The translations under genes and the position numbers were made by a program. A model generated the notes under the pieces. That model worked only from the letters and a program-made list of their open reading frames with translations. It did not search any database and had not been told where the DNA came from. This document shows, in pieces, positions 11,056 through 31,366 of a stretch of 64,000 bases of DNA (the first letter of the stretch is position 1; every line of letters starts with the position of its first letter). This DNA comes from Thomasclavelia ramosa DSM 1402 (lineage in GTDB: Bacteria; Bacillota_I; Bacilli_A; Erysipelotrichales; Coprobacillaceae): NCBI RefSeq assembly GCF_014131695.1, contig NZ_CP036346.1, positions 806,001 to 870,000 of the forward strand, read 5' to 3'.

Positions 11056-11069
11056 TGTAATCGCTTTCT
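11056..11069 (+). promoter_or_regulatory. cre box (CcpA operator) of the first GH84 gene
   Basis: TGTAATCGCTTTCT matches 13 of 14 positions of the cre consensus TGWAANCGNTNWCA as I recall it, and it ends on the first base of the -35. A bound CcpA would block RNA polymerase, which implies glucose repression of the glycosidase. Confidence 0.7.
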
Positions 11070-11097
11070 TGACAGGGGATAATTGTCATGATATACT
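11069..11097 (+). promoter_or_regulatory. SigA promoter of the first GH84 gene
   Basis: Perfect -35 TTGACA (11069-11074), 17-base spacer, -10 TATACT (11092-11097). Transcription would start near 11104 and run straight into the RAT and terminator. Confidence 0.85.
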
Positions 11098-11109: not shown

Positions 11110-11138
11110 GGATTGTTACTATTAGATTAGGCAAGACC
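11110..11138 (+). promoter_or_regulatory. RAT: ribonucleic antiterminator site for a BglG/LicT-type protein
   Basis: GGATTGTTACT, a variable loop, then AGGCAAGACC gives the 29-base RAT layout recognised by LicT/SacY/BglG proteins. Its last six bases (AAGACC) are the first six of the terminator stem, so the two RNA folds exclude each other. The likely binding protein is the antiterminator encoded at 18927-19757. Confidence 0.88.
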
Positions 11139-11213: not shown

Positions 11214-14200
11214 ATGGCAAGATTTTGGGACAAAGCTTTAAAATCTTCATTAGCAATGTTGGTTGTATTTAGTACACTATTTTTTATGTCACCAAATATA
11301 AAAGTAGAAGCTAAAGAAACAAATTATGAAATTTATCCAACACCACATGAAATTACTTATCAAGATAAGGATTATGTTATTCGTTCACAAGTTAATGTGG
11401 TATATGAAGATGGAATTGATGCTGCTACTAAAAAGAGAATGACTGAAGTATTAGAGTCAAAAAATAAACAAATTAGCACATCTAAGCAGAAAGTAGACGG
11501 AAAAACAAATATTTTAGTTGGTACATATAAATCTGGAGGGTATGTTGATGGCTATGTTAAATCCAACTATAGCGTTGAAGAGAGTCTATTTAGTAAATTT
11601 GGGGCGCATTTTGTTGCTTCAAATAATGGTGAAATTGTTATTTTAGGAAAAGATACTGATGGGGCATTTTATGGAATTACCTCATTAAAACATATTTTTA
11701 ATCAAATGGATGGATCAACAATCCGTAACTTTGTAATTAAAGATTATGCTGATACCGATATTCGTGGTTTTATCGAAGGGTACTATGGGATTCCTTGGTC
11801 AAATGAAGATAGAATGTCATTAATGAAATTCGGTGGTGATTTCAAAATGACTTCTTATGTATTTGCACCTAAAGATGATCCATATCATAAAAATTTATGG
11901 CGTGAATTATATCCTGAAGAGGAACTCGCAGCCATTAAGGAAATGGTTCAAGTAGGAAATGATTCTAAATGTAGATTTGTATGGACAGCCCATCCATTTA
12001 TGGGTGGTTTCAATGCATCTAAAGTAGATGAAGAAATTGCTTCATTACTTAAAAAGTTTGATCAATTGTACGATGCTGGGGTACGCCAATTTGGTGTTCT
12101 TGGTGATGATGTTGGTAGCCTAGACCGTAGTGTTGTAATTAAAATGATGAATAGTGTATCAGCTTGGGCAAAAGAAAAAGGAGATGTTTATGATTCTGTT
12201 TTCTGTCCAGCAGGATATAATCATTCATGGCAAGGGGATTATTCTGAATTAAGTGATTATGATGCTGGATTCCCTGAAGATGTGAAAATTTTCTGGACTG
12301 GTGAAGCAGTGTGTCAACCAGTTGAACAAAAAACATTAGATCATTTTAAAAGAAACAGATTACCAGAAGGGGCTGACGAAAGAAGAAGTCCACTGTTCTG
12401 GTTGAACTGGCCTGTCAATGATATTAACGGTTCACGTTTAATGATGGGGAAAGGAAGTTTATTACACACTGATATTAATATTGATGATTTAAGTGGGGTA
12501 GTAACTAATCCAATGCAAGAAGCTGAAGCTTCTAAAGTGGCTATTTTTGCGGTAGCTGATTATGCATGGAATGTTAAAAGCTTTAATGATGATCAAAGTT
12601 GGGCTGATTCATTTAAATATATTGATCAAGAGGCAAGTGAGGAATTACATACATTAGCTAAGCATATGTCTAATCCTCAACCTAATGGTCATGGCTTAGT
12701 TTTAGCTGAATCTGAAGAATTACAACCATTAATTAATGAGTTTAAAACTAAGTTAGCTAATGGTGATTCAATTATTGAAAGTGGAAAACAATTAATTGCA
12801 GAAATGAATGTGATTATTGATGCTTGTGATGGTTTCCATGCAAATAGTAAAAATGAAAACCTGAAAAAAGAATTATTATCTTTTACCGGTTCTTTAAAAG
12901 ATTTAACGACAGCAATTAAACATTTTACAGAATCAGCAATTGCAATTGAAGAAAATGATATGGTTACAGCTTTTAATCAATTCTCAAATGCATCATCAGA
13001 ATTAATTAATAGTCAAAATCATATCCGTAAATTATTAAATGGAACAGCTAAAGTTAGTCCTGGATCAACACATTTGATTCCTTTGGCAAAAGCTTTACAA
13101 GATAAACTTTCAGGACCAATTAATGACTATATTGCTAGTGGAGAAACAGAACAACCATTAGAAATTAGTGCTTCATCAAGCTTTACTACTTGGCATTCAG
13201 GTAAAATAGCTGATATTGTTGATGGTAATAATGATACTGCAGCATGGCATAATGGATATGAAAAAGCTGGTCAATATTTCCAAGTGGATCTAAGTAAACC
13301 AACGACTATTTATGGTGTTCATATTTTAAATGGTGCTAATAATAGTGATAAAAAAGAAGATACTTTTGGTTATGCAAAATTACAATATTCTACTGATGGA
13401 ACAACTTTTAAAGATTTAAATAAAGAAGTATATGGTGAATATGCATCACAAGTAGATGTTACTAATATTGAAATTGAAGATGTTGTTGCCGTACGTTATG
13501 TATGTAGCGAAGTTGGTGGCGGAAACAAATGGCCGGCAATGCGTGAATTTACTGTTGTTACACAACCGGCAGAAGAGGAACAATTTACTAAAGAAGTGAT
13601 CCGTACTACGGATGGATGGAGTATTTATGGTGGTAGTGATGCTAATCTTATTGATGGTGATTTAACTACTAAAGTACATTATAATGTTAGACAAAAAGGG
13701 GAACCTGCAAATACAACTATTCCAGGTGATTATGTAGGGGTTAAATTATCTAAACCAATTACTTTAGGTAAGATTAATATTCTTCAAGGTAACACTGATA
13801 GCGATGGTGATTATTTTAAAGATGCTGATTTACAATATTCATTAGATGGTAAAACTTGGACAACAGTTGAAACATATAAAAATACAATTAATATTGTGAC
13901 TGATTTGTCAGATCAAAATATTACTGCTCAATATGTCCGATTGGTTAATAAGGTTAATCAAAACACTTGGATTGCTATGCGTGAATTTGATGTAGCAGCT
14001 AAGGTATATCATAATGGTAAAGTATTTACTAATGTTAGTGAATATAAGAGTTTAACTGCTGATTATTTAGATGAAAGTGCTAAAATCACGCCAGCTAAAG
14101 GGATTACTTTAGCTAATGGTGATTATGTAGGTTTAAAACTAGATCGAATTCATGAATTAAAAGATATTGTTAGTGAATTAACAAATGATAGTTTGACCAT

Positions 14201-16370
14201 TCAAGTTTCTAAAAATAGTTATGAGTGGCAAAACGTAAATGCTGGTAATGTAAGTGCTGATGCTCGTTATGTTCGTATTATTAATAATAATGAGGCTGAA
14301 GTAACTTTTGATCTTAATAAATTTATTGTAAATACAGTTGAGATTAAAGAGAAATCAATTACAAGTAGTAATTTTTCAATCGATAAACCATTGAATGTAT
14401 TTGATGGTGATCTTACTACGGCTACTGCTTATCAGGGATCACAAAATGTTGGCAAGTATTTCACATATGATTTAGGTCAAGAAATAACTTTAAATTCATT
14501 TAAAGCTATATGTACTGATAGCGAATGGGATTATCCACGTCATGGAAAGTTCTCAGTTTCTACTGATGGTGAAACTTGGACAGAAATCATGCTTTTAGGT
14601 AATCAAAATGAAAATAACCCAGGTGAAGCTGAAAATACTGATGAAATTGGTTTTGTTTTACCAAGTCATGAAATTTCATATAATGCAAAAAAAGTAGATG
14701 GTTTAAATCTGCAAGCTCGTTATTTAAAATTTGAAATTACTAGAACTAAAGTTGGAGCTGATAAATGGGTTAGATTCCAAGAATTAGAAATAAATAATGG
14801 GGAATTTATACCTTCACAAAACAATCCAACCTTCACATCTAGTAGTCAAGAAACAAGAGATGGATTATTTAGTTATATGGTTGATGGGGATATTTCAACA
14901 ATGTTTATTCCTAAAGATGCTAATGGTTATGTGAACTATAGTTTATCATCTAATAACCAAGTAAACACAATTAAAATTATTCAAAATAGTGCTGTAATTT
15001 CTAATGCAGTTGTTAAAGCAAGATTATTTACAAATGCAAGTGCAGAACAATGGGTAACTTTAGGAACATTATCACAAGCAATTAATGAATTTGTTTTACC
15101 TGAAAATACAATCTTATTAGATATTAAGGTTGAGTGGGGTGATGTGATTCCTAATATTACAGAATTATCAACATACAAATCTGAGGTCACTACACTTAAT
15201 GTTGATGCGCTTAAAGCTTTAATTGATAACAAGGAAGATTTATCTTCATGGACAGCTGCAGCAGCTGCAACATATGGAGATGCTTATAATGCAGGTAAGC
15301 AAGTACTTGAAAGTGAGTATGCTTCACAAACAACTGTTGATAATGCCGTTAGAGCAATTAACAAGGCAATTGAAAATAAAGTATTAAAAGGTGATTTAAG
15401 TAAATTGGAAATAATTATCGCTAATGCACATACTGATCAAAATAATTACACTGCGCCTTCATGGTTAGCATATAGTAAAGCTATTGAGGCAATTAATAAG
15501 TCAATTGCTAATGGTGATAATACTTCAGTTGCAGATGTTGATAAATTAATTGCTAATTATGATCTAGCAAATACTAATTTAGTATTTAATCCTTCAAATC
15601 AAGAAGAAGCAATTATTACAATTGAAGGAGAAAATGATTTTGTAGCTTCGGTTACAAATCCAGAAAAACTTTACACAATCAACTCATGGAAAATGTATCT
15701 AGAAGCTAAGGCAAAAGTTGAACAGTTGATTATAGATAATCAAAGCACTCCTGTACACCCTGATGAATTTGCGAAAGCTATTAGTGAATTAGCTGCTGCT
15801 AAAGAAAAATTAGTAGTTGTTGGTGATCTAAAAGATATTTTAGATACAGCTAATAAAGTTAATCAAGAATTATATACAACTAGCAGTTACAAAGGATTAG
15901 CTGATGCAATTGCTGAAGCAACTGCAAGATTAGAAAATGGAACTGCTGAAGAAATTGATGCTAGTATCAAAGCACTTGATAATGCACTTAAAGCTCTTGT
16001 AGTTCGTGCTAAAGCTGATGAAGTAAAAGAATATATTAACAGTATTACATTAGTGGATTTAAGCAAATACACTGAAAGTTCTGCTAAAATATATCAAGAG
16101 GCATATAATGTTTTAAAAGCTATGCTTGATAACTTAAGTGATATTTCTGCTAAAGAATTTATTGAGGCTAAAAACAATTTTGAAACAGCGGTTGCTAAAT
16201 TAGAAGAAAAAGCAACAGTAGCCCCAATACCAACACCGACTCCAAACGAACTTCCTGCTAGTGATTCTGCGAAAACAGGTGATGATGTAAATATTTTTGC
16301 CTATGTAACAGGATTAGGCGTTGTTGCTATTGTTGGTATATACTGGCTGTTAAGAAAAAAAGAGGAATAA
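11214..16370 (+). CDS. Cell-wall-anchored GH84 beta-N-acetylglucosaminidase (NagH/hyaluronidase-like)
   Basis: Giant secreted glycosidase, 1718 residues. Order: signal peptide about 1-33; GH20b-like domain about 39-175; GH84 catalytic barrel about 180-480 with RGFIEGYYGIPWS and the catalytic Asp pair D298-D299 (GVLGDDVG); a helical segment; several F5/8-type C (CBM32-like) sugar-binding modules from about 660 to 1320 (repeated VDGDLTT-type turns and MREF endings); about five FIVAR-like helical repeats; then a C-terminal sorting signal with DSAKTGDD, a hydrophobic helix and RKKEE. GH84 enzymes use substrate-assisted catalysis to release GlcNAc from glycans such as mucin or hyaluronan. GGGAGG precedes the ATG. 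Expression depends on the cre box, promoter, RAT and terminator just upstream. Confidence 0.9.
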   Translation: MARFWDKALKSSLAMLVVFSTLFFMSPNIKVEAKETNYEIYPTPHEITYQDKDYVIRSQVNVVYEDGIDAATKKRMTEVLESKNKQISTSKQKVDGKTNILVGTYKSGGYVDGYVKSNYSVEESLFSKFGAHFVASNNGEIVILGKDTDGAFYGITSLKHIFNQMDGSTIRNFVIKDYADTDIRGFIEGYYGIPWSNEDRMSLMKFGGDFKMTSYVFAPKDDPYHKNLWRELYPEEELAAIKEMVQVGNDSKCRFVWTAHPFMGGFNASKVDEEIASLLKKFDQLYDAGVRQFGVLGDDVGSLDRSVVIKMMNSVSAWAKEKGDVYDSVFCPAGYNHSWQGDYSELSDYDAGFPEDVKIFWTGEAVCQPVEQKTLDHFKRNRLPEGADERRSPLFWLNWPVNDINGSRLMMGKGSLLHTDINIDDLSGVVTNPMQEAEASKVAIFAVADYAWNVKSFNDDQSWADSFKYIDQEASEELHTLAKHMSNPQPNGHGLVLAESEELQPLINEFKTKLANGDSIIESGKQLIAEMNVIIDACDGFHANSKNENLKKELLSFTGSLKDLTTAIKHFTESAIAIEENDMVTAFNQFSNASSELINSQNHIRKLLNGTAKVSPGSTHLIPLAKALQDKLSGPINDYIASGETEQPLEISASSSFTTWHSGKIADIVDGNNDTAAWHNGYEKAGQYFQVDLSKPTTIYGVHILNGANNSDKKEDTFGYAKLQYSTDGTTFKDLNKEVYGEYASQVDVTNIEIEDVVAVRYVCSEVGGGNKWPAMREFTVVTQPAEEEQFTKEVIRTTDGWSIYGGSDANLIDGDLTTKVHYNVRQKGEPANTTIPGDYVGVKLSKPITLGKINILQGNTDSDGDYFKDADLQYSLDGKTWTTVETYKNTINIVTDLSDQNITAQYVRLVNKVNQNTWIAMREFDVAAKVYHNGKVFTNVSEYKSLTADYLDESAKITPAKGITLANGDYVGLKLDRIHELKDIVSELTNDSLTIQVSKNSYEWQNVNAGNVSADARYVRIINNNEAEVTFDLNKFIVNTVEIKEKSITSSNFSIDKPLNVFDGDLTTATAYQGSQNVGKYFTYDLGQEITLNSFKAICTDSEWDYPRHGKFSVSTDGETWTEIMLLGNQNENNPGEAENTDEIGFVLPSHEISYNAKKVDGLNLQARYLKFEITRTKVGADKWVRFQELEINNGEFIPSQNNPTFTSSSQETRDGLFSYMVDGDISTMFIPKDANGYVNYSLSSNNQVNTIKIIQNSAVISNAVVKARLFTNASAEQWVTLGTLSQAINEFVLPENTILLDIKVEWGDVIPNITELSTYKSEVTTLNVDALKALIDNKEDLSSWTAAAAATYGDAYNAGKQVLESEYASQTTVDNAVRAINKAIENKVLKGDLSKLEIIIANAHTDQNNYTAPSWLAYSKAIEAINKSIANGDNTSVADVDKLIANYDLANTNLVFNPSNQEEAIITIEGENDFVASVTNPEKLYTINSWKMYLEAKAKVEQLIIDNQSTPVHPDEFAKAISELAAAKEKLVVVGDLKDILDTANKVNQELYTTSSYKGLADAIAEATARLENGTAEEIDASIKALDNALKALVVRAKADEVKEYINSITLVDLSKYTESSAKIYQEAYNVLKAMLDNLSDISAKEFIEAKNNFETAVAKLEEKATVAPIPTPTPNELPASDSAKTGDDVNIFAYVTGLGVVAIVGIYWLLRKKEE

Positions 16371-16501: not shown

Positions 16502-16984
16502 TCATTTATAAGTAAAAATGGTTTTACCAGTTTCAACAGATGAAGCAGTAGTAAATGTTTTAATAGGGTGAGATTCATAGTTGCAAACAATAATAGGGGT
16601 AATAACCTTATTATTTAGGACTTTTAATAAATTATCGCTTAGTGTAACAATATCTGCTCCTAAAGAAACATAGTCACCGGCTTTTACATGATACTGAAAA
16701 TTATTAGCATCTGGCTTTGCTCTATTGATACCAATATGTACTAGTAAATGAAGACCATTAGGAAGGGTCATAACAAATGCGTGTTTAGTATTAGCAATAA
16801 CACTAATTATTCCCTCACATGGTGCAACAAGTTTATTATCGGTAATTTCAATTGCAAGACCATCACCGACCATTTTGTTAGCAAATGCTTTGTCGGGGAT
16901 ATTTTCCAGACGAATAACTTTGCCACAGGCAGGAGCACATACTGTATTTTTTTTATTTTTTAATAGTCTAGTAAAAAAATTCAT
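16502..16984 (-). CDS. PTS glucose-family EIIA component (Crr-like)
   Basis: 160-residue phosphocarrier that passes phosphate from HPr to the EIIB domain of its permease. Family motifs: VCAPACGKVIRLENIPD at the N-terminus, KHAFVM with H68, and LLVHIGI with H83, the expected phosphorylated His. Standalone EIIA proteins serve NagE/PtsG-type permeases that lack an A domain, as the neighbouring EIICB does. The gene is convergent with the first GH84 gene and divergent from the permease gene. AAAGGAGA precedes the ATG. Its leader carries a promoter, a RAT-like element and a terminator, so it should be induced with the glycosidases. Confidence 0.92.
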   Translation of the reverse strand: MNFFTRLLKNKKNTVCAPACGKVIRLENIPDKAFANKMVGDGLAIEITDNKLVAPCEGIISVIANTKHAFVMTLPNGLHLLVHIGINRAKPDANNFQYHVKAGDYVSLGADIVTLSDNLLKVLNNKVITPIIVCNYESHPIKTFTTASSVETGKTIFTYK

Positions 16985-17295: not shown

Positions 17296-17446
17296 AGGTT
17301 TGGATATATTATTCTGCACGAAAAATAGTACATTTTCGTTCGGACAAAAAAAACACATTAATTTACTAATAATCAATGTGTTTAGAAACATAAATATATT
17401 GAATGGAAAGGTACAGTTAAATCCTATATTGATTGGGGGGATGGGA

Positions 17447-18907
17447 ATGATGAAATACATGCAAAGATTGGGAAAATCATTGATGTTGCCTGTATCAGTG
17501 ATGCCAATTGCTGCATTATTAAAGGGAATTGGTTATTGGATCGACCCAACAGGATGGGGAAGTAATAATGCTATTGCTGCTTTTTTGATTGAATCTGGGG
17601 GAGCGATTATTGATAATTTACCAATTTTATTTGCTGTAGGAATTGCTATTGGAATGTCTCAGGAACGAGAGTTAACGGTAGCTCTAAGTGCGGTTGTTTC
17701 TTATATGATTGTTTCTAGGCTGCTTTCACCACCGGCTGTAGCATTGATAAAAGGAATTCCCGAAGCAGAAGTTTCTGCTGCTTTTGAAAATTCTGCAAAT
17801 GCATTTGTTGGAATAATTTCAGGTCTTGTAGTGGCATATAATTATAAAAAGTTTTCGAAAGTAAAGTTACCTGATGCGTTATCTTTTTTTGGTGGAAAGC
17901 GTTTTGTCCCAATAATATCGACTGCTTCAATGCTAGTTATTTCTTTATTATTACTAATTGTTTGGCCGTTTTTTTATGAATGTTTTGTATCATTTGGAGA
18001 AATGATTTCGAAATTAGGACCAGTTGGAGCTGGATTATATGGATTTTTTAATCGATTATTAATTCCTACTGGATTACATCATGCACTCAATTCTGTCTTT
18101 TGGTTTGATGTGGCAGGAATTAATGATATTGGCAAATTTTGGGGAACAGTGTCTGGAGGCATTAAAGGAGTAACTGGTATGTATCAGGCTGGTTTTTTTC
18201 CAGTAATGATGTTTGGATTACCAGCAGCTGCAATCGCTATTTACCAAAGTGCTAGACCTGAACGAAAAAAACAAGTTGGAACGATTTTATTGTCTGCTGC
18301 TTTTGCTTCATTTGTTACTGGGGTTACAGAACCATTGGAGTTCTCTTTTATGTTTGTTGCACCAGTATTATATTTTATTCATGCTCTATTAACAGGAATA
18401 ATGCTATTTGTGGCTGCGGTATTTAAATGGCTTGCGGGCTTTGGCTTTTCGGCAGGATTGATTGATTATATTTTGAGTATTAAAGCCCCGTTCTCTAACG
18501 ATATATTTATGCTGATTCCACTTGGATTGATTTGTGCTTTTATATATTATTGCATTTTTAGATTTATGATAGTTCGTTATAATTTAATGACACCTGGTCG
18601 GGAGACTGATGAAGATATAATTGAAATTGAGGAAGAGGAATACAATATTACATTAGAAAATCAAGACTATGATGAGATTGCAATTGTTTTGATAGAAGCT
18701 TTGGGGGGGCGAAATAATGTGCAGTTTGCAGATAGCTGTATTACACGATTACGTGTGGAATTAGGTAATCCTGATTTAGTTGATGAACAAGCTATATTAG
18801 CTACTGGAGCAACAGGAATTATAAAAATTGGAAAAAATAATTTACAAATTATCATAGGCACCGAAGTACAATTTATTGTCGATGCCATGAATGACATATT
18901 AATGTAA
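17447..18907 (+). CDS. nagE: N-acetylglucosamine-type PTS permease EIICB (NagE-like)
   Basis: Integral membrane transporter that imports and phosphorylates the sugar. Residues 1 to about 385 form the EIIC domain with multiple membrane helices. The motif NRLLIPTGLHHALNSVFWFD is characteristic of GlcNAc and related members of the glucose family. A linker precedes the EIIB domain, with the phosphorylated Cys at residue 431 (DSCITRLRV). No EIIA domain is fused; it is encoded divergently at 16502-16984. The frame opens upstream at a TTG (17300), but homology starts at MKYMQRLGKSLMLPV and GGGGGG lies 6 bases before ATG 17447. Substrate GlcNAc is inferred from motif plus the flanking GlcNAc-releasing enzymes. 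Confidence 0.88.
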   Translation: MMKYMQRLGKSLMLPVSVMPIAALLKGIGYWIDPTGWGSNNAIAAFLIESGGAIIDNLPILFAVGIAIGMSQERELTVALSAVVSYMIVSRLLSPPAVALIKGIPEAEVSAAFENSANAFVGIISGLVVAYNYKKFSKVKLPDALSFFGGKRFVPIISTASMLVISLLLLIVWPFFYECFVSFGEMISKLGPVGAGLYGFFNRLLIPTGLHHALNSVFWFDVAGINDIGKFWGTVSGGIKGVTGMYQAGFFPVMMFGLPAAAIAIYQSARPERKKQVGTILLSAAFASFVTGVTEPLEFSFMFVAPVLYFIHALLTGIMLFVAAVFKWLAGFGFSAGLIDYILSIKAPFSNDIFMLIPLGLICAFIYYCIFRFMIVRYNLMTPGRETDEDIIEIEEEEYNITLENQDYDEIAIVLIEALGGRNNVQFADSCITRLRVELGNPDLVDEQAILATGATGIIKIGKNNLQIIIGTEVQFIVDAMNDILM

Positions 18908-18926
18908 ATGGATGGAGGCAATAACA

Positions 18927-19757
18927 TTGAAGATACTCAAGGTTTTTAATAATAATAGTGTTGCAGCAATATCAGATGAGTTAGGTGATATAATTTTAAC
19001 TGGTTCGGGGATCGGTTTTCAAAAGAGAATTGGTGATGAAGTTGACGAAAGCAGGATTGAAAAGACATATTTTTTTAAAGATGATCAGCAGAAACGATTT
19101 GAGCAATCGATTGAAACAGTACCTGCTATATATTTTGAAATAACTAATAAAATTGTTAATCAAGCTAATAAGGAATTAGATACAGATTTTAGTGGTGAAA
19201 TATTTTTAGCGATAAGTGATCATATTTCATTTGCAGTAAAAAGAAAAAAGGAAGAGATTTATCTTCCTAATGTTGTTTTGAGTGAAACAAAAGTATTATA
19301 TAAAAAAGAATATAAAGTTGGTTTATGGGCACTTGATTATATAGAAGAAAAAACGGGGATACGGTTAGATGACGACGAAGCAGGTTATATTGCTTTACAT
19401 TTAGTAAACTTTTCACTCGATAATAAGGCAAATAATGCAACGAAAATTGTTACTTTGACAAAAGAAGTACTAAATGTGATTAAATTATCAATGAAAGTTG
19501 ACTTAGAGGAGGATTCTCTAGGTTATGCGCGAATTTCAACTCATTTAAAGTATTTAGCGGAAAGAATTTTTAGGGATGAAATTGATGAATTGCAAGATAC
19601 TACAGCGGATATCCGGGAAATGTTGAAAGAAGATTTACGATTGTCTCTGTGTATTAATCGGATTGTTAAATTAATTCGTGATCGTTATGATTATGAATTA
19701 TCACCAGACGAGCAAACTTATTTATGTATACATATAAAAAAGAACGCAAAATTATAA
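18927..19757 (+). CDS. BglG/LicT-family transcription antiterminator
   Basis: RNA-binding regulator with two PTS regulation domains. The N-terminal KILKVFNNNSVAAI is the CAT RNA-binding domain (about 1-58). PRD1 carries H99 (SDHISF) and H158 (LHLVN); PRD2 carries H206 (STHLK) and H269 (CIHIK), all four conserved. Phosphorylation by the PTS switches dimer formation and binding to RAT RNA. An ATG exists at 18912, but GGAGG at 18914-18918 sits 8 bases before a TTG at 18927, and family proteins begin at that point, so a TTG start is likely. It follows the permease gene directly and is the obvious protein to bind the RATs at 11110, 17038 (minus), 19810 and 30084. Confidence 0.92.
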   Translation: MKILKVFNNNSVAAISDELGDIILTGSGIGFQKRIGDEVDESRIEKTYFFKDDQQKRFEQSIETVPAIYFEITNKIVNQANKELDTDFSGEIFLAISDHISFAVKRKKEEIYLPNVVLSETKVLYKKEYKVGLWALDYIEEKTGIRLDDDEAGYIALHLVNFSLDNKANNATKIVTLTKEVLNVIKLSMKVDLEEDSLGYARISTHLKYLAERIFRDEIDELQDTTADIREMLKEDLRLSLCINRIVKLIRDRYDYELSPDEQTYLCIHIKKNAKL

Positions 19758-19795
19758 TGGAAGCGCTTGACGTTTACTAAATATTTTGCTAATAT
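19758..19795 (+). promoter_or_regulatory. cre-like box and promoter of the second GH84 gene
   Basis: TGGAAGCGCTTGAC (19758-19771) has the AAGCGCTT core of cre and merges into -35 TTGACG (19767-19772). A 17-base spacer leads to -10 TAATAT (19790-19795). The arrangement copies that before the first GH84 gene, with cre overlapping the -35. Confidence 0.72.
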
Positions 19796-19809: not shown

Positions 19810-19836
19810 GGATTGTTACTCTAAGCAGGCAAGACC
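19810..19836 (+). promoter_or_regulatory. RAT of the second GH84 gene
   Basis: GGATTGTTACT-CTAA-GCAGGCAAGACC is a 27-base RAT very close to LicT/BglG targets. Its AAGACC end is shared with the following terminator stem. Confidence 0.9.
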
Positions 19837-19884: not shown

Positions 19885-19986
19885 GTTTAAAATCTGTATT
19901 GATTTATTTATATAATGTATAACTAATATTGATAATTTTTGGGAATGGGACTCGATATTAACTATACGGGAAAGGAAAAGGAGATA

Positions 19987-22900
19987 ATGAGAAAAATTAA
20001 AAAAAATACTCATAAACTGATGTCTATGTTTTTGGCAGTACTAATGGTTTTCGGTTGTTTTAGTGCATGGCCAACACAAGTTAGTGCTGCTGAGTCAGAT
20101 TATGAAATTTATCCTAAACCACATTTGATGGAATATCAAAGTGGTGATTACGTTATTCATCAAAATATTAATATTGTATATGAAGATGGTATTGATGAAT
20201 ATACTAAAGCTAGAATGAATGAGGTATTGGCAATCAAGAAGATAAATGCTACTATCTCAAATGAAATTAAAGAAGATCAAACTAATATCTTAGTAGGTAT
20301 TAAAGGATCAGATGGATACGTTGATAAACATGTATCTAAAAATTACACATTAAAAACAAGTGGATTATATGATAAATTAGATTCATATTTATTAGCCTCA
20401 GATAATGGGACAATTACTGTATTAGGTAAAGATACTGATGCTGCATTTTATGGAATCACTAGTTTATATCATATCTTTAACCAGATGGATAGTTATTCAA
20501 TCCGTAACTTTGTAATGGAAGATTACGCTGATGTAGCTAGTCGAGGATTCATTGAAGGATATTATGGAAACCCTTGGTCAACAGAAGATCGCTCTGAATT
20601 GATGAAATGGGGAGGATATTATAAATTAAATTCATATTTTTATGCTCCAAAAGATGACCCTAAACATAATTCTAAATGGCGTGAATTATACAGTGATGAA
20701 GAAATTGAAACAAAAATAAAACCGTTAGCACAAGCTGGTAATGAATCAAAATGTCGTTTTGTTTTTGCATTGCATCCGTATATGAATAATGCAATTAGAT
20801 ATAACAGTGAAGAAAATTATCAAGCTGATTTAAAAGTAATGCAGGCTAAATTTGCTCAAGTAATTGAAGCAGGTGTTCGTCAAATTGCAATTCTTGCTGA
20901 TGATGCTGGAAATGTTGGTGGAGATAACTACATTAAAACTTTGAAAGATATGACTGCATGGATCAAGGAAATGCAAAAAACATATCCAGATTTAAAATTA
21001 ACATTACCATTTTGTACTCAAGAATATATGGGTAATGGCCAAGGTTACTATACGAATTTCCCAGAAAACGTTCAAATTGTTATGACTGGTGGACGTGTTT
21101 GGGGTGAAGTTTCAAATAATTTTACAACAACTTTTACTAATAATGTAGGTCGTGGACCATATATGTGGATCAATTGGCCTTGTACTGATAATTCTAAAAA
21201 GCACTTGATTATGGGTGGATATAGTACATTCTTACATCCGGGGGTTGATCCAAATAAGATCCAAGGTATTGTTCTAAATCCAATGCAACAATCTGAACCA
21301 AGTAAAGTGGCAATTTTTGGAAATGCATGTTATTCATGGAATATTTGGGAAACTAGTGAAGAAGCAGATGAAATTTGGGAAGATTCATTTAAATATGTTG
21401 ATCATAATAGCGCAGAAGTAACAGCTGCTTCGGATGCCTTAAAAGAACTATCAAAACATATGATAAATCAAAATATGGATAGTCGTGTAACGCCATTACA
21501 AGAGTCAGTAGAATTAAAAGATCGTTTGAATCAATTTAAAACTGCTTTAAATAGTGGTAATACAATCAGTGATGATTTATTTACCGATTTAATTAACGAG
21601 TTCACAAAATTACAAACAGCTGCAAAAACTTATCGTAATGAAGCAGGTGACACTCGTATAAAAGATCAAATAATTTATTGGTTAGATTGCTGGGATGATA
21701 CTACTGAGGCAGCGATTGCTTTAATTAATGGTGTCAAAGCAGTGCAAGATGGTGCTGAAAATGACCAAATTTGGGACTTGTATGCTCAAGGTCAAGCTGC
21801 TTTTGAAAGATCAAAAACACATAATTTCCATTATGTTGATCATGATGAATATGCGGAAGTAGGGGTACAACATATTGTACCGTTTATAAAAACAATGGAA
21901 CAATACTTATCTGATGTTGCATCATCAATTATTGATCCATCAAAACAGGTAACAAAATTTATTACAAATCGTGATGATACACCTACTGGAGCTATTTCAA
22001 ATGTTTTTGATAATAAAGCCAATACGGAAATTGTTTATAAAAATCCAAATTCTATAAATGAAGGTACATATGTTGGTGTTAGTTACACAAAAGCTATTGA
22101 TGTAGATAAAGTGATATTTAGATTAGGTACAAATAGTAATTCTAAAGATACTTTTGCAAAATCTAAAGTGCAATTTACTAATGATGGCAAAGAATGGAAA
22201 GATTTGGATGGAACTATTTATAATCTACCAAATGAAGTTGTTTTAGAAGATTTAGAATTACAAAATGTAAAAGGAATTAGAATGATTGCCACAGAAGCGA
22301 AATCTAATACTTGGTTAGGAATTCGTGATATTGTTGTAAATCCAACAGATGAACCTATTGTAGATAATGATATGGGAACATTATCTATAGATAAATTGTC
22401 ATTACAAGGCGGTACTCTTGCAAAAGTAACAGATGGAGATAACTCTACATTTGCTCACTTTGCTGAAGATCCGTATAAAGGTGGCACAATTAAAGATTAT
22501 ATACCTATTGATGCCTCATTGATTTTAACATTCAAAAATCCTAAAAAATTAGGAACAATTAATTTTGTTCAAGATAGTAAAACTGATAAAATTACAAAAT
22601 ATGCGCTTGAATATACAATTGATGGTAAAAATTGGCAAGAAATTGCAAAATATGATGGTCAAGCAGCAGTTAATGAGGATGTTTCAGCATTAAACTTAAC
22701 GGTTAAAGCAGTTAGAATTAGAAATTTAGAATTAAATTTACAAAATGATAGTGCTGGTTTTTGGTGGAAAGTTTATGATTTTAGTGTAAGCAATCCTGCA
22801 GCTATAGAAAAGACATTTATGTATACTGATACATGGGAAGTCTACAAAGGAACAGAGTCAAATCTAACGGATGGAGATAACACTACAGCTTTAGATTTTA

Positions 22901-25626
22901 ATACTAAGCCTGGTGATACTAGCCGCGTTGGTGATTTTATTGGTTGGGATTTTGGAAAAACAATTCAGATAGGAAAAGTTCATGCTGTTATTGGTGGAGA
23001 TCGTAATGCGGGTGACAAGTGGCTTAAATACAGTTTACAATACTCTACTGATGGTCAAGATTGGACAACATATAAATCATATGAAGGTGTTACTAACGGC
23101 AAAGATGTTATTGATGAGAATTTACGTGGAGTAGAGGCAAGATATGTTCGTTTAGTAAATAATGAACAGAAAAATTCTTGGGTAATTTTCTCAGAATTTG
23201 ATGTTGCTCAATTTGATCCTATTAAAGATTATGATGATACAAATGTATACACAAATACAGAATATAGATTGATAACAGAAAGTAAAGAAGATTTAACTAA
23301 ATTGATGTATGATGAGGTAATCACATTAACTCAAGGTCAATATATTGGTGTTGATTTATTAAGAATTAAAGATATTAGTGAAATTGTTGTTGATATGAAT
23401 AAAGATAATTTGACTATAGAAACATCTAAAAATGCACTTGAGTGGACTACTGTAAAAACTAAAACTAGTGAATTACCTGATGCTCGTTATGTAAGAATAA
23501 TTAATAATACTGATTCTGCCATTACTTTTGATCTTAATAGATTTGAAGTACATTCAAATGAATTATACGCTCCTTCATTATATGAAACAACAATGGGAAT
23601 TAATAGTTCATGGGGAGTAGCAGAAGATAGTCGTAATAATGGTGCGGCTTTTGATGGTAATATTGATACAACAACAGAATTTGCAGATCTGCCACAAAAA
23701 GGACAATACATTATTTATGATTTAGGACAAGAAAGAAATATTTCTAAAATTCAAATGTTCTGCCAAGATTCTGCAGTAAATTATATTCGGGATGCTGATA
23801 TTCTTATTTCTAATGATTTAGAAAATTGGACAAAGGTTATAACAATTGGTGATGGAGTAGAAAATAAAAATGATGCCTCTGTTACTTGTATAAATTCTGA
23901 TGCAGGTTATAAAGCATCAAGTACTTATCCTAATAAGGTATTGGTTGAAGGGACTGCTGATAATGTTAAGGCTCGTTATTTAAAAATTTTAATGACAGCA
24001 ACAAATAATAATCGTGCAGTTTTATTCAATGAAATTGTAATTAATGATGGTGAGTATGTTCCGGTATCAAATGATCCTACTTTTGAATCAAATGCAGTGG
24101 AAGTACAAGGATTTGTACCACAAAATATGTTTGACGGTGATTTAACTACAGCATATAAACCAAATACTACTGATGCAGGGTATATTACATATACACTTTC
24201 TGATAATTTAGATGTTAAGAAAATAAATATCGTTCAAAAAGGGACAGTAAGTAATGCTAAGGTAATGGCTTTAGTAATGGTTGGTGAAGAAAAACAGTGG
24301 GTACAAGTAGGCACTTTAAGCAAATCACTAAATGAGATATATTTACCATTTGATATGACTTATGAATTGAAGATTGTATGGGAAGCAAATAATATCCCAA
24401 CAATTTCTGAAATTGTAAGATTAAATGATGATGAATTTTTACCAGAATTAGAAGCATTACAAAAATATGTTAACTCATTAAATGTTGATGAAAATAATTA
24501 TACTGCGTCTTCTTATGCTAAGTATGTTAGCAAATTGAATCAGGCAAATGAAGTTTTATCAACTGCTTCAGGAGATAAGAAATTAATAATCAAAGCATAT
24601 AGTGAATTACAAATTGCTTATACTAATTTAGTTACTCGTGGTAATGTCCAATTAATTAAAGATGAATTAAATAAAATTGGTGCATTAGTTGCTGATGATT
24701 ATACTGATTCAACATGGGAGGCATTACAAGATAAAGTTAATGAGGCTAATACTTTATTAGCTAAAGGTGAAGAAGAATTGAGCGTTAAAGAAGTTGCTGA
24801 TATGGTCAACATATTACAAGTAGCTAAATCAAACTTAATTACAAAAGTTTCAGTGAGTAAAGAAGTATTACAAAATTATATAGATACAAATGAGTTGGAT
24901 AATTTAGATACTAGTAAATATCTAACATCTACTGCAACACCATTTGTAGATGCATTAAAGGTGGCACATGACCTAATTGCCAGTGATGATGCGACAGTTA
25001 AACAATTGGAAGATGCTTTAACAGCATTACAAGAAACACGTGCGGCATTGGTTTTAAAAGCAACTGCTGATGAAATTAATGCTATAAATGGATTAATTGA
25101 TAGTTATAAAGAAAATAATTATACTGCTTCTACATGGAAAGAATTTGTTAAAGTACTAACAGAAGTTAAAGATGCTTTAAATGATGAAAACAGCAGTGAA
25201 GATATAGCTGAATTAACAAAAACTTTGAAAGCTGCTGCTGAAAAACTTGTAGAACGAGGAGATTTAACAGATCTTAATATTTTATTAGAAACTGCTGAAG
25301 CACTTGATGCTAATAGATATACTGAAGAATCTTATAATAAATTATTGGATATTATTAAAACTATCAAAGTAGAGTTAAAAGATAGTTCAGAAATGCTACA
25401 AACTGATGTAGATAAACTACAGGCTAAGTTGCAAGCAGCAATTGATGCATTAGAAATAAAACCATCAGTTACCCCTAATGAAGATGGTATAATTAATGGA
25501 AACACTGCATCAGATACAACAACTAGTTCAAAAACTGGTGACGATGTAGTTATTGGATCATTCTTAGTATTAGGAATGTTAAGTATTGCTGGATTATGGC
25601 TATACCGTAAAAAAGAAAATTGTTAA
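19987..25626 (+). CDS. Cell-wall-anchored GH84 beta-N-acetylglucosaminidase, second paralogue
   Basis: 1879-residue paralogue of the 11214 enzyme with the same plan. Signal peptide about 1-36 (LMSMFLAVLMVFGCFSAWP); GH20b-like domain; GH84 barrel with RGFIEGYYGNPWS and catalytic Asp pair D305-D306 (ILADDAG); CBM32-like modules (repeated DGDNTT/DGDLTT turns) about 640-1480; five FIVAR-like repeats (YTASSY, YTDSTW, YTASTW, YTEESY motifs); C-terminal SSKTGDDV, a hydrophobic helix and YRKKEN. The two catalytic domains clearly differ (GIPWS versus GNPWS, different loop lengths), so linkage or substrate may differ. The frame opens at a TTG (19939), but AAGGAG before ATG 19987 and the signal peptide favour the latter. 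Same cre/promoter/RAT control as its partner. Confidence 0.9.
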   Translation: MRKIKKNTHKLMSMFLAVLMVFGCFSAWPTQVSAAESDYEIYPKPHLMEYQSGDYVIHQNINIVYEDGIDEYTKARMNEVLAIKKINATISNEIKEDQTNILVGIKGSDGYVDKHVSKNYTLKTSGLYDKLDSYLLASDNGTITVLGKDTDAAFYGITSLYHIFNQMDSYSIRNFVMEDYADVASRGFIEGYYGNPWSTEDRSELMKWGGYYKLNSYFYAPKDDPKHNSKWRELYSDEEIETKIKPLAQAGNESKCRFVFALHPYMNNAIRYNSEENYQADLKVMQAKFAQVIEAGVRQIAILADDAGNVGGDNYIKTLKDMTAWIKEMQKTYPDLKLTLPFCTQEYMGNGQGYYTNFPENVQIVMTGGRVWGEVSNNFTTTFTNNVGRGPYMWINWPCTDNSKKHLIMGGYSTFLHPGVDPNKIQGIVLNPMQQSEPSKVAIFGNACYSWNIWETSEEADEIWEDSFKYVDHNSAEVTAASDALKELSKHMINQNMDSRVTPLQESVELKDRLNQFKTALNSGNTISDDLFTDLINEFTKLQTAAKTYRNEAGDTRIKDQIIYWLDCWDDTTEAAIALINGVKAVQDGAENDQIWDLYAQGQAAFERSKTHNFHYVDHDEYAEVGVQHIVPFIKTMEQYLSDVASSIIDPSKQVTKFITNRDDTPTGAISNVFDNKANTEIVYKNPNSINEGTYVGVSYTKAIDVDKVIFRLGTNSNSKDTFAKSKVQFTNDGKEWKDLDGTIYNLPNEVVLEDLELQNVKGIRMIATEAKSNTWLGIRDIVVNPTDEPIVDNDMGTLSIDKLSLQGGTLAKVTDGDNSTFAHFAEDPYKGGTIKDYIPIDASLILTFKNPKKLGTINFVQDSKTDKITKYALEYTIDGKNWQEIAKYDGQAAVNEDVSALNLTVKAVRIRNLELNLQNDSAGFWWKVYDFSVSNPAAIEKTFMYTDTWEVYKGTESNLTDGDNTTALDFNTKPGDTSRVGDFIGWDFGKTIQIGKVHAVIGGDRNAGDKWLKYSLQYSTDGQDWTTYKSYEGVTNGKDVIDENLRGVEARYVRLVNNEQKNSWVIFSEFDVAQFDPIKDYDDTNVYTNTEYRLITESKEDLTKLMYDEVITLTQGQYIGVDLLRIKDISEIVVDMNKDNLTIETSKNALEWTTVKTKTSELPDARYVRIINNTDSAITFDLNRFEVHSNELYAPSLYETTMGINSSWGVAEDSRNNGAAFDGNIDTTTEFADLPQKGQYIIYDLGQERNISKIQMFCQDSAVNYIRDADILISNDLENWTKVITIGDGVENKNDASVTCINSDAGYKASSTYPNKVLVEGTADNVKARYLKILMTATNNNRAVLFNEIVINDGEYVPVSNDPTFESNAVEVQGFVPQNMFDGDLTTAYKPNTTDAGYITYTLSDNLDVKKINIVQKGTVSNAKVMALVMVGEEKQWVQVGTLSKSLNEIYLPFDMTYELKIVWEANNIPTISEIVRLNDDEFLPELEALQKYVNSLNVDENNYTASSYAKYVSKLNQANEVLSTASGDKKLIIKAYSELQIAYTNLVTRGNVQLIKDELNKIGALVADDYTDSTWEALQDKVNEANTLLAKGEEELSVKEVADMVNILQVAKSNLITKVSVSKEVLQNYIDTNELDNLDTSKYLTSTATPFVDALKVAHDLIASDDATVKQLEDALTALQETRAALVLKATADEINAINGLIDSYKENNYTASTWKEFVKVLTEVKDALNDENSSEDIAELTKTLKAAAEKLVERGDLTDLNILLETAEALDANRYTEESYNKLLDIIKTIKVELKDSSEMLQTDVDKLQAKLQAAIDALEIKPSVTPNEDGIINGNTASDTTTSSKTGDDVVIGSFLVLGMLSIAGLWLYRKKENC

Positions 25627-29130: not shown

Positions 29131-29143
29131 GTATGCATTTTTG

Positions 29144-29152
29144 TGATATAGT
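29144..29152 (+). promoter_or_regulatory. Extended -10 promoter of the YihY-like gene
   Basis: TGATATAGT, a TGn extension with TATAGT (29147-29152), 25 bases before ATG 29178. This supports the internal start, since the upstream ATG at 29133 would precede the transcript. Confidence 0.5.
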
Positions 29153-29177
29153 TAACAATAAAGAGGGATGGTGGATT

Positions 29178-29993
29178 ATGGAAAGATTTCAAAGAGTTGT
29201 AATGAAATTTATTTCGCCCCAGGGAAACTTGTTTCGTTATTCGTTAAGTTTTTGTGTTTTGTTAGCTTTATTGCCGGCACTGATTATTTTTTTAAAGGTT
29301 TTTCAAACGGATATTTTAAGTGCGCCTAATTTAATTAATTTACTATATGATTATGTTCCTGAAACAATTTTAGCACCTTTTGTTGAGTATGTAATGTCAC
29401 AAGAATATACAACATTTGTATCATTGATTATTTCAATGGGATTTTCTATTTATTTAGCGAGTAATGCCTTTTATTCTTTTATGTTGATTTCAATGACTGA
29501 TGAAGGTTTTGATACTTATGCGATTTTAGTGCGAATTAAAGCTATCGTAGTTTTTGTTTTGTTAGTAATTGGTTTAGTAGGATTAACATTATTTAATTAT
29601 TTAGTACCAATTAACAGCACAATTGTTATGTTGGCTGGTTTATTTATTGTATTTTACTGTTTTTATCGATATTTATCATTTGAAAAAAAACCATTATCAT
29701 ATGGCTTGATTGGAGCTGCTTTTACTAGTGCATGCATTGTTTTAATTGGAGTATTCTTTTTCTATATTGTCAATCATTATACACGATATAATGCTTTGTA
29801 TGGGCCGCTTGCCAGCTTAGTAATCATGCTGATTTCAATTTATTTAATTTCTAGTGTAATATATTTTGGTTATTGTTTAAATCATGAGTATGGTAAGTCT
29901 TTTTCTAAAAGAACTTACAAACATCAAAAGTTTTATGATTATGGAAATAATTTTTTGGATAAAATCGTAGAAAAATTTGGAAAATTAATTTGA
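29178..29993 (+). CDS. YihY/BrkB-family integral membrane protein
   Basis: 271-residue protein with about six hydrophobic helices (for example SLSFCVLLALLPALIIFL and LVIGLVGLTLFNYLV). The early aromatic and FISPQG segment, the SNAFYSFM region and the YGPLASLVI..I..YLISSVIYFGYCLN segment fit YihY/UPF0761 (formerly called ribonuclease BN in error). The molecular function is not established. The frame extends to ATG 29133, but GAGGGATGG before ATG 29178 and the promoter position favour 29178. No obvious operon partner; no good terminator follows. Confidence 0.8.
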   Translation: MERFQRVVMKFISPQGNLFRYSLSFCVLLALLPALIIFLKVFQTDILSAPNLINLLYDYVPETILAPFVEYVMSQEYTTFVSLIISMGFSIYLASNAFYSFMLISMTDEGFDTYAILVRIKAIVVFVLLVIGLVGLTLFNYLVPINSTIVMLAGLFIVFYCFYRYLSFEKKPLSYGLIGAAFTSACIVLIGVFFFYIVNHYTRYNALYGPLASLVIMLISIYLISSVIYFGYCLNHEYGKSFSKRTYKHQKFYDYGNNFLDKIVEKFGKLI

Positions 29994-30043
29994 AATTTTA
30001 CTGAAATTGGATTATATTTTTATTAATGGTTTCACTAAAAATA

Positions 30044-30071
30044 TTGATAATATTCATTTCCGTGTTATATT
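30044..30071 (+). promoter_or_regulatory. Promoter of an orphan RAT leader
   Basis: TTGATA (30044-30049), 16-base spacer, TATATT (30066-30071) preceded by TGT. Weaker than the GH84 promoters but laid out the same way before a RAT. Confidence 0.5.
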
Positions 30072-30083
30072 TATACCATAGAA

Positions 30084-30110
30084 GGATTGTTGCTTTGAGG
30101 AGGTAAGACC
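30084..30110 (+). promoter_or_regulatory. Orphan RAT site
   Basis: 27 bases, identical to the second GH84 RAT at 22 positions, with GGATTGTT and AAGACC ends kept. The middle reads GCTTTGAGGAGGT, so the stem may be weakened. No intact gene follows. Confidence 0.72.
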
Positions 30111-30158
30111 AGATATATTTTTGTGTTTTTAGGCAAAATTATATTTGGTTTTTTTATT
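30105..30158 (+). terminator. Terminator overlapping the orphan RAT
   Basis: AAGACCAGATATATTTTTG and CAAAATTATATTTGGTTTT form a 19-base stem with one T-T mismatch and two G-U pairs, then T run. Same design as the two GH84 leaders. Confidence 0.82.
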
Positions 30159-30440
30159 GGGAGGGAGTGATAAGAGAGCTGTGATATCATTAGATGGCAA
30201 AGGGTAACTCCACACTCAGACAGTTAAATTATTATCTAAAGTAACGAATGAAACAGTAGGTCATCATTTATGACGGAAAAGAATGCAATGATAAAAATTT
30301 CTGCTAAAGAAACAGAAATAACTGGTAAAAATGCCAAACCACAAATAATTCCAGAGTTACGTGAATAGGTAGCGAGTGACTATCGAGTTTTAACAAGTTG
30401 TGAAATTGTAATAGGGGACAATAATAATTTAAAAAAGGTG
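30159..30440 (+). pseudogene. Gene debris downstream of the orphan RAT leader
   Basis: After the leader a ribosome site (GGGAGGGA) remains at 30160-30167, but every frame is broken. The longest open piece starts at ATG 30270, reads MTEKNAMIKISAKETEITGK and onward, and stops at 30366; the same frame continues to a second stop near 30456. I cannot assign these pieces to a family. The context suggests a lost member of the amino-sugar regulon, such as a third glycosidase or transport gene. That is inference from the leader only. Confidence 0.45.
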
Positions 30441-30445
30441 ATATT

Positions 30446-30492
30446 TGTAGTGAACTGAATAAGTTGTGGTCCAACTTATTCAGTTCACTACA
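30446..30492. repeat. Perfect 21-bp inverted repeat (hairpin)
   Basis: Arms 30446-30466 (TGTAGTGAACTGAATAAGTT then G) and 30472-30492 are exact complements around TGGTC, followed by TTTT on the plus strand. It could be a bidirectional terminator or the end of a mobile or MITE-like element. The absence of any mismatch inside decayed surroundings is striking. Confidence 0.8.
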
Positions 30493-30628
30493 TTTTGCTT
30501 ATGGAAATCAACTTTTTAATTTACTAAATTAATACTGATAAAAATAGAAGAAAAAAGTAAAAAAAGTGATGTCGTTTATTGCTTTTCTCTGTCGATAATT
30601 CGTGTTAGAATGTTAGCGGAGGTCTATT

Positions 30629-31366
30629 ATGCAACGATATTTTATAAATGAAGATTTAACAAGTAAACAACAACTAATTTTACCGGATGATGATTTGCAT
30701 CATGTTAAAAAGGTAATGCGAAATATAAATGGTGATGAAATTATCTGTATAGATAATGCTGGACAAGTATATTATGGCGTAATTGAAGATATTGAGATAG
30801 GTTTAGTTAAAATTGATAAGCGGCTTGAAGAAAATAATGAATTAGATGTCGAGATAACTTTAGTTTATGCTCTACCCAAAGGGGATAAATTTGAATTAGT
30901 ATTACAAAAAGCTACAGAACTTGGTGTCAAGCGTATTGTTCCAATTCAAACAAAGCGTTGTGTAGTAAAGATGGATGAGCAAAAGTTTGCTAAAAAAATC
31001 ACTCGTTATCGAAAAATATTAAAAGAGGCTGCAGAACAGTCATGGCGTAATTTTATTCCAGAAATTACTAATGTAATCAAACTAGAACAGCTTGATCAAT
31101 ATTTAGGTGATCATAATCTAGTAGCTTTTGAAGAACTTGCTAAACAAGGTGAACATATGGTGCTAAAACAAACATTAGACCAATTATCTTCAGGTGATAA
31201 AATTACTATTGTAGTTGGAAGTGAAGGCGGCTTTGAACTTGATGAAATTGAGATGATGAATAAATTAGGAATTAAAGCTTGTTCACTAGGAAAAAGAATT
31301 TTGAGAAGTGAAACAGCTCCATTATATTTTTTAAGTGTAATTGGTTATGCTAGGGAGATTGGATAA
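30629..31366 (+). CDS. rsmE: 16S rRNA (uracil-N3)-methyltransferase RsmE
   Basis: SPOUT-class enzyme that methylates U1498 (E. coli numbering) of 16S rRNA. 245 residues: N-terminal PUA-like RNA-binding domain (HHVKKVMRNINGDEI), then the trefoil-knot catalytic domain with LPKGDKFELVLQKATELGV, IVVGSEGGFELDEI and LGKRILRSETAPL, the SAM-binding knot. GCGGAGG precedes the ATG. An extended -10 TGTTAGAAT at 30603-30611 can drive it. In many Firmicutes rsmE follows prmA and precedes mtaB; here prmA is absent and one unknown gene intervenes. Confidence 0.95.
   Translation: MQRYFINEDLTSKQQLILPDDDLHHVKKVMRNINGDEIICIDNAGQVYYGVIEDIEIGLVKIDKRLEENNELDVEITLVYALPKGDKFELVLQKATELGVKRIVPIQTKRCVVKMDEQKFAKKITRYRKILKEAAEQSWRNFIPEITNVIKLEQLDQYLGDHNLVAFEELAKQGEHMVLKQTLDQLSSGDKITIVVGSEGGFELDEIEMMNKLGIKACSLGKRILRSETAPLYFLSVIGYAREIG

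Follow-up and report, generated by a model that had tools for sequence, protein, structure and literature searches.

The gap between a BrkB-like membrane protein gene and rsmE in Thomasclavelia ramosa DSM 1402 very probably holds the remnant of a secreted GH20-type beta-N-acetylhexosaminidase gene. This gene would have been controlled by a ribonucleic antiterminator (RAT) as a target of a LicT/NagY-type antiterminator, and both the gene and its leader have decayed. Rather than a new regulatory RNA, the site is a defunct member of a sugar-responsive regulon whose type is already known. The coordinates given here, unless preceded by a genome and contig, are those of the window, that is, the whole stretch of 64,000 nucleotides that was analysed. 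The features of the site are as follows.

29994 to 30567, forward strand: inserted DNA that separates the BrkB-like gene from rsmE and is missing in eight congeners
30044 to 30071, forward strand: promoter-like hexamers TTGATA and TATATT with a 16-nt spacer, 12 nt before the RAT
30084 to 30110, forward strand: orphan RAT with the substitutions A9G and C21T (covariance model, position comparison)
30105 to 30152, forward strand: intrinsic terminator stem-loop overlapping the RAT 3' end, then a T run (folding)
30163 to 30422, forward strand: degraded internal portion of a GH20-type hexosaminidase gene, comprising the linker before Glyco_hydro_20b and the start of that domain (tblastn, HMM, frameshift-aware alignment)
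30205 to 30207, forward strand: in-frame stop TAA in the fragment (frameshift-aware alignment)
30250 to 30251, forward strand: frameshift in the fragment, position approximate (frameshift-aware alignment)
30366 to 30368, forward strand: in-frame stop TAG where the homologues have an invariant tryptophan (alignment, conserved residues)
30446 to 30492, forward strand: perfect 20-21-bp hairpin, present as a single copy in the genome

The original prediction, made from the sequence of the site, was that a promoter, a RAT with 22 of 27 identities to that of the second GH84 gene and a 19-base-pair terminator are kept 10 kb from the GH84 locus with no open frame behind them, and each of these elements was recovered. 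The hexamers match 10 of 12 consensus positions, with a TG before the -10, although promoter-like matches overall are near chance (five found versus 3.4 expected). The spacing from the -10 to the RAT (12-14 nt) matches that of the GH84 leaders. The orphan RAT, GGATTGTTGCTTTGAGGAGGTAAGACC, is identical to the second GH84 RAT (19810-19836) at 22 of 27 positions and lies 10.3 kb from it. Its 3' end overlaps an intrinsic terminator whose stem has 13+6(+1) pairs (19-20 bp; -19.2 kcal/mol, z -6.7). The first GGTC pairing of this stem is changed to GGTT and the stem is retained. There is no open reading frame (ORF) of at least 100 aa between 29993 and 30629, and the longest within 450 nt of the RAT has 32 aa.

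Twelve RAT sequences from the genus and family, the orphan not among them, were used to build a covariance model. It found the orphan RAT with 29.4 bits (E-values, which are rough, of 1e-9 in the window and 5.1e-8 in the closed 3.25-Mb genome), and all seven RAT stem pairs are formed. A strict RAT pattern gave 34 matches in nine genomes and none in a reversed control. Across 23 distinct sequences, the RAT stem is paired in 100% of cells; three of its pairs vary on both sides among the variants, and sliding the partners destroys the pairing. The model match, the pattern control and the stem covariation together indicate that the orphan RAT is real. Rfam gave no match at the gathering threshold, weak matches to miRNA hairpins being rejected as a likeness in shape to the palindrome at 30446-30492, and a search of plasmid DNA returned short AT-rich matches only.

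In the loci examined, 60 distinct RAT sites were read, and 55 of them have an ORF of at least 100 aa within 450 nt, most of these ORFs starting with an apparent signal peptide (judged by eye). Without exception, these 55 gene-bearing RATs have A at position 9 and C at position 21. The orphan has G and T at these positions, and is thus a degenerate RAT rather than a working one. Folding of isolated RATs separates the orphan poorly from working ones, since intact RATs fold weakly too, and was given no weight in the conclusions.

Other RATs that appeared to lack a gene were rejected as such: one lies at a contig end (L149), one has a gene further downstream (L165), and at another (L183, in G030) a coding start is present. 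The last is a RAT-led secreted enzyme gene adjoining an antiterminator, with an apparent early frameshift, and is a possible decaying member of the regulon. A second orphan RAT, GGATTGTTGATATTAAATTAGACAAGACC, was found in the same genome at G000:C1:679062-679090 (L156, L175). With three changes and a weak terminator it is more degraded, and no gene follows it; the opposite strand carries a pair of transporter-like frames that resemble each other. The presence of two degraded orphan RATs in one genome fits leaders decaying after their genes.

The DNA behind the orphan terminator was identified through its relatives. Searches of the debris against Pfam and NCBIfam gave nothing significant (an AMIN-like match with E 0.03 was rejected), and the PDB gave nothing. 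In a tblastn search of the joined debris frames against 60 relatives, a run of weak matches was obtained (best E 8e-5), mainly to open frames of 1,500-2,200 residues in the same genus. The four homologues examined all carry a GH20 catalytic domain, Glyco_hydro_20b and FIVAR, and three also carry F5/8 C; each time, the debris matches just before and at the start of Glyco_hydro_20b. Loci selected by their GH20 domain alone served to build an independent HMM of the pre-GH20 region, with which all six frames of the window were searched. Its best match was the debris (E 6.6e-5, the next being 0.24). Of the named species, T. saccharogumia and T. cocleata are the closest to this genome. A frameshift-aware alignment to the Thomasclavelia saccharogumia homologue (L063) covers 30163-30365 with a score of 76 versus 27.4 +/- 4.7 for shuffled DNA, and the alignment to the T. 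cocleata homologue (L065) reaches 30419. Intact homologues of the debris, in this genome and in its congeners, have a RAT leader of their own; five such loci are L062, L068, L069, L070 and L071.

The debris therefore aligns as GH20 beta-N-acetylhexosaminidases with F5/8 C and FIVAR domains do around the start of Glyco_hydro_20b. Unlike the intact enzymes, it has only about 87 residues left and no catalytic domain, and so shows family homology but no intact frame with a signal peptide and catalytic domain. Homology to the enzyme sets in about 10 nt or less after the T run of the terminator and corresponds there to codon 376 or so of an intact homologue. The N-terminal part with the signal peptide, the catalytic part and the C-terminal part are accordingly missing, which amounts to about 375 N-terminal codons and more than 1,000 C-terminal codons. 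A set of 14 residues is conserved in 85% or more of the homologues, and about half of these are altered in the debris. The exact subfamily is uncertain, as the fragment is short and diverged from the relatives compared.

The RAT has been changed at two of 21 positions versus about half of the 14 conserved codons of the debris. Some selection might have been retained on the leader, but this better keeping is not significant (binomial p about 0.12, with a rough per-base rate). The hairpin at 30446-30492 is intact amid otherwise decayed DNA. It was rejected as a mobile repeat, the genome holding no second copy of high identity; it is probably a terminator, belonging either to the lost gene or to the BrkB gene, and may now end transcription of the latter.

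The site is bounded by the BrkB-like gene (29133-29993) upstream and by rsmE (at 30629) downstream. The gap between the two is 635 bp here versus 81-288 bp in eight congeners, in which neither a GH20 remnant nor a gene was found between BrkB and rsmE. The insertion therefore appears to be lineage-specific. It had been proposed that relatives would reveal the intact gene: they did reveal, through tblastn, that the debris is of GH20 type, but none of the eight congeners has a gene at this site. The simplest reading of these comparisons is an insertion in the Thomasclavelia lineage of this genome followed by decay, the alternative being many independent losses elsewhere.

The regulon to which the lost gene would have belonged is extensive. 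Nine intact RATs in the genome precede two GH84 genes, four GH20 genes, one GH2 gene, one GH16 gene and one DUF4082/lectin-like gene. The members and associated genes that lie in the window are as follows.

11110 to 11138, forward strand: RAT of the first GH84 gene (11214-16370) (covariance model)
16502 to 16984, reverse strand: PTS EIIA gene, with a RAT-like leader at 17063-17044 (covariance model)
17300 to 18907, forward strand: N-acetylglucosamine-type PTS EIIBC gene (TIGR01998)
18912 to 19757, forward strand: LicT/NagY-like antiterminator gene, CAT_RBD and two PRD domains (domain search, orthologue co-occurrence)
19810 to 19836, forward strand: RAT of the second GH84 gene (19939-25626) (covariance model)

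A cognate antiterminator is thus found in this genome: the protein encoded at 18912-19757 is probably the regulator of the RATs, to which it would bind. The EIIBC encoded beside it scores 608 bits against TIGR01998 (cut-off 553). The EIIA leader on the reverse strand has a RAT-like core and a terminator, and the same element occurs in six genomes of the genus, which suggests that the PTS itself may be part of the regulon. Among the 60 relatives, all 14 with an orthologue of the antiterminator (broken by stops in one of them, G004) have RATs, versus only two of the 46 without it, both of these RATs lying beside another antiterminator (Fisher p 7e-12, kinship ignored). This co-occurrence, together with the RAT leaders of the intact homologues, supports the view that the orphan site is a lost member of the regulon.

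Several further observations concern the regulatory elements. Sequences resembling catabolite response elements, TGTAATCGCTTTCT and TGGAAGCGCTTGAC (11060-11090 and 19770-19785), overlap or adjoin the -35 of both GH84 promoters, and none is evident at the orphan promoter. At G000:C1:732519-732547 (L174), a RAT-like sequence precedes a shortened antiterminator (a 216-aa frame), and a PTS-like gene with a further RAT-like site comes next. In a congener, the antiterminator orthologue (G004:C195:20480-21306, L191) is broken by stops and a frameshift while seven RATs remain; this represents either a sequencing error or a regulon without its regulator.

On this evidence, a GH20 gene would have landed between the BrkB-like gene and rsmE together with a promoter, RAT and terminator of its own. 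There it would have responded to the LicT/NagY-type antiterminator whose gene lies 10 kb upstream beside the N-acetylglucosamine PTS. When activated, presumably by a sugar signal, the antiterminator would bind the RAT and block the overlapping terminator, thus allowing transcription into the enzyme gene. Deletions would then have removed some 375 codons from the 5' end of the gene and over 1,000 from its 3' end, and a frameshift and stops would have been added. The leader would be decaying alongside, with two invariant RAT positions changed and one terminator pair weakened, and the site presumably has no present function.

The original prediction offered either a recently lost regulon member or a short RAT transcript that acts as a decoy. 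The first proposal stands in so far as the debris is a GH20-type fragment whose intact homologues carry the same RAT, but the loss does not look recent. An intact gene in most strains, lost lately by this isolate alone, would account for the still recognisable RAT leader. It is nevertheless improbable, since the gene is at this site in no congener and the debris bears two large deletions, a frameshift and two in-frame stops, besides the alteration of about half of its conserved residues; such a load of lesions argues against a recent single-step loss. A closer competitor, although still unlikely, is a variant in which only the order of events differs: the leader and GH20 fragment would have arrived already truncated by recombination. 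Homology that sets in near codon 376, almost directly behind the T run (about 10 nt at most), and the absence of a gene at the site in congeners fit such an arrival, but a later 5' deletion would look identical, and the leader is placed and spaced as in working genes.

Under the decoy proposal, the short transcript of the leader would serve as a sponge and draw the antiterminator away from its real targets. The promoter-like hexamers, the RAT and the terminator are all recognisable, and the RAT is slightly, if not significantly, better kept than the debris. However, the orphan RAT is not a conserved, intact binding site kept without its gene: it has lost both A9 and C21, which all 55 gene-bearing RATs share, and the site is missing from eight congeners. 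The second, more degraded orphan RAT at 679062 fits simple turnover, and RAT decoys were found in no paper of the literature searched. This proposal is accordingly given very little credence. It is just as improbable that the leader is still transcribed as an RNA of about 75-80 nt which, with the second orphan RAT, lowers the free antiterminator pool; if this were true, dying targets would briefly act as sponges, resetting the threshold of the glycosidase regulon. That the site is a chance match without a real RAT can practically be dismissed. The hexamers are indeed near chance level, but the RAT model gives an E-value of 5e-8 per genome, the terminator (z -6.7) is fused to it in the family register, and GH20 debris lies directly behind. 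A decayed RAT-controlled GH20 gene is thus the reading retained.

The closest described system is NagY-NagE-HylA of Enterococcus faecalis, in which the antiterminator NagY is encoded beside the N-acetylglucosamine transporter NagE and also acts, by way of a RAT-terminator, on hylA, a dispersed hyaluronidase gene of which many strains have only a partial copy (PMC9981650). RATs were found only before nagY and hylA in that first study (PMC9981650), and the NagY targets were later extended to 26, with a putative RAT in 23 (PMC12502629). As far as can be read from the sequence, the Thomasclavelia system would work alike. Both have a BglG/SacY-family antiterminator adjoining an N-acetylglucosamine PTS, RATs that overlap terminators, dispersed secreted glycosaminoglycan-degrading enzymes with FIVAR domains as targets, and target genes that are partial in many strains. 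In contrast to the enterococcal system, nine intact RATs precede GH84, GH20, GH2, GH16 and DUF4082 genes here, and the orphan site is a dead target. Similar to LicT/BglG/SacY antitermination in general, the RATs are 27-29 nt long with a paired stem and loops, the terminator shares the RAT 3' arm, and the regulator has a CAT_RBD-PRD-PRD architecture. The differences are that the antiterminator in the window scores 264.6 on the LicT equivalog model, below its cut-off of 300, and that it is secreted hexosaminidases, and not a beta-glucoside operon, that are targeted. A description of this dispersed glycosidase regulon was not found in the literature searched.

The orphan site itself represents ordinary gene decay and is of low interest; it is useful as a marker, since it shows that a RAT leader can persist after its gene is gone. 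Its regulon is of moderate interest. Tracing the orphan RAT leads to an antitermination regulon that is sizeable and dispersed in this gut genus; it comprises secreted glycosidases that release N-acetylglucosamine, and related ones. Scanning for RATs can list the members of such a regulon, living and dead, directly.
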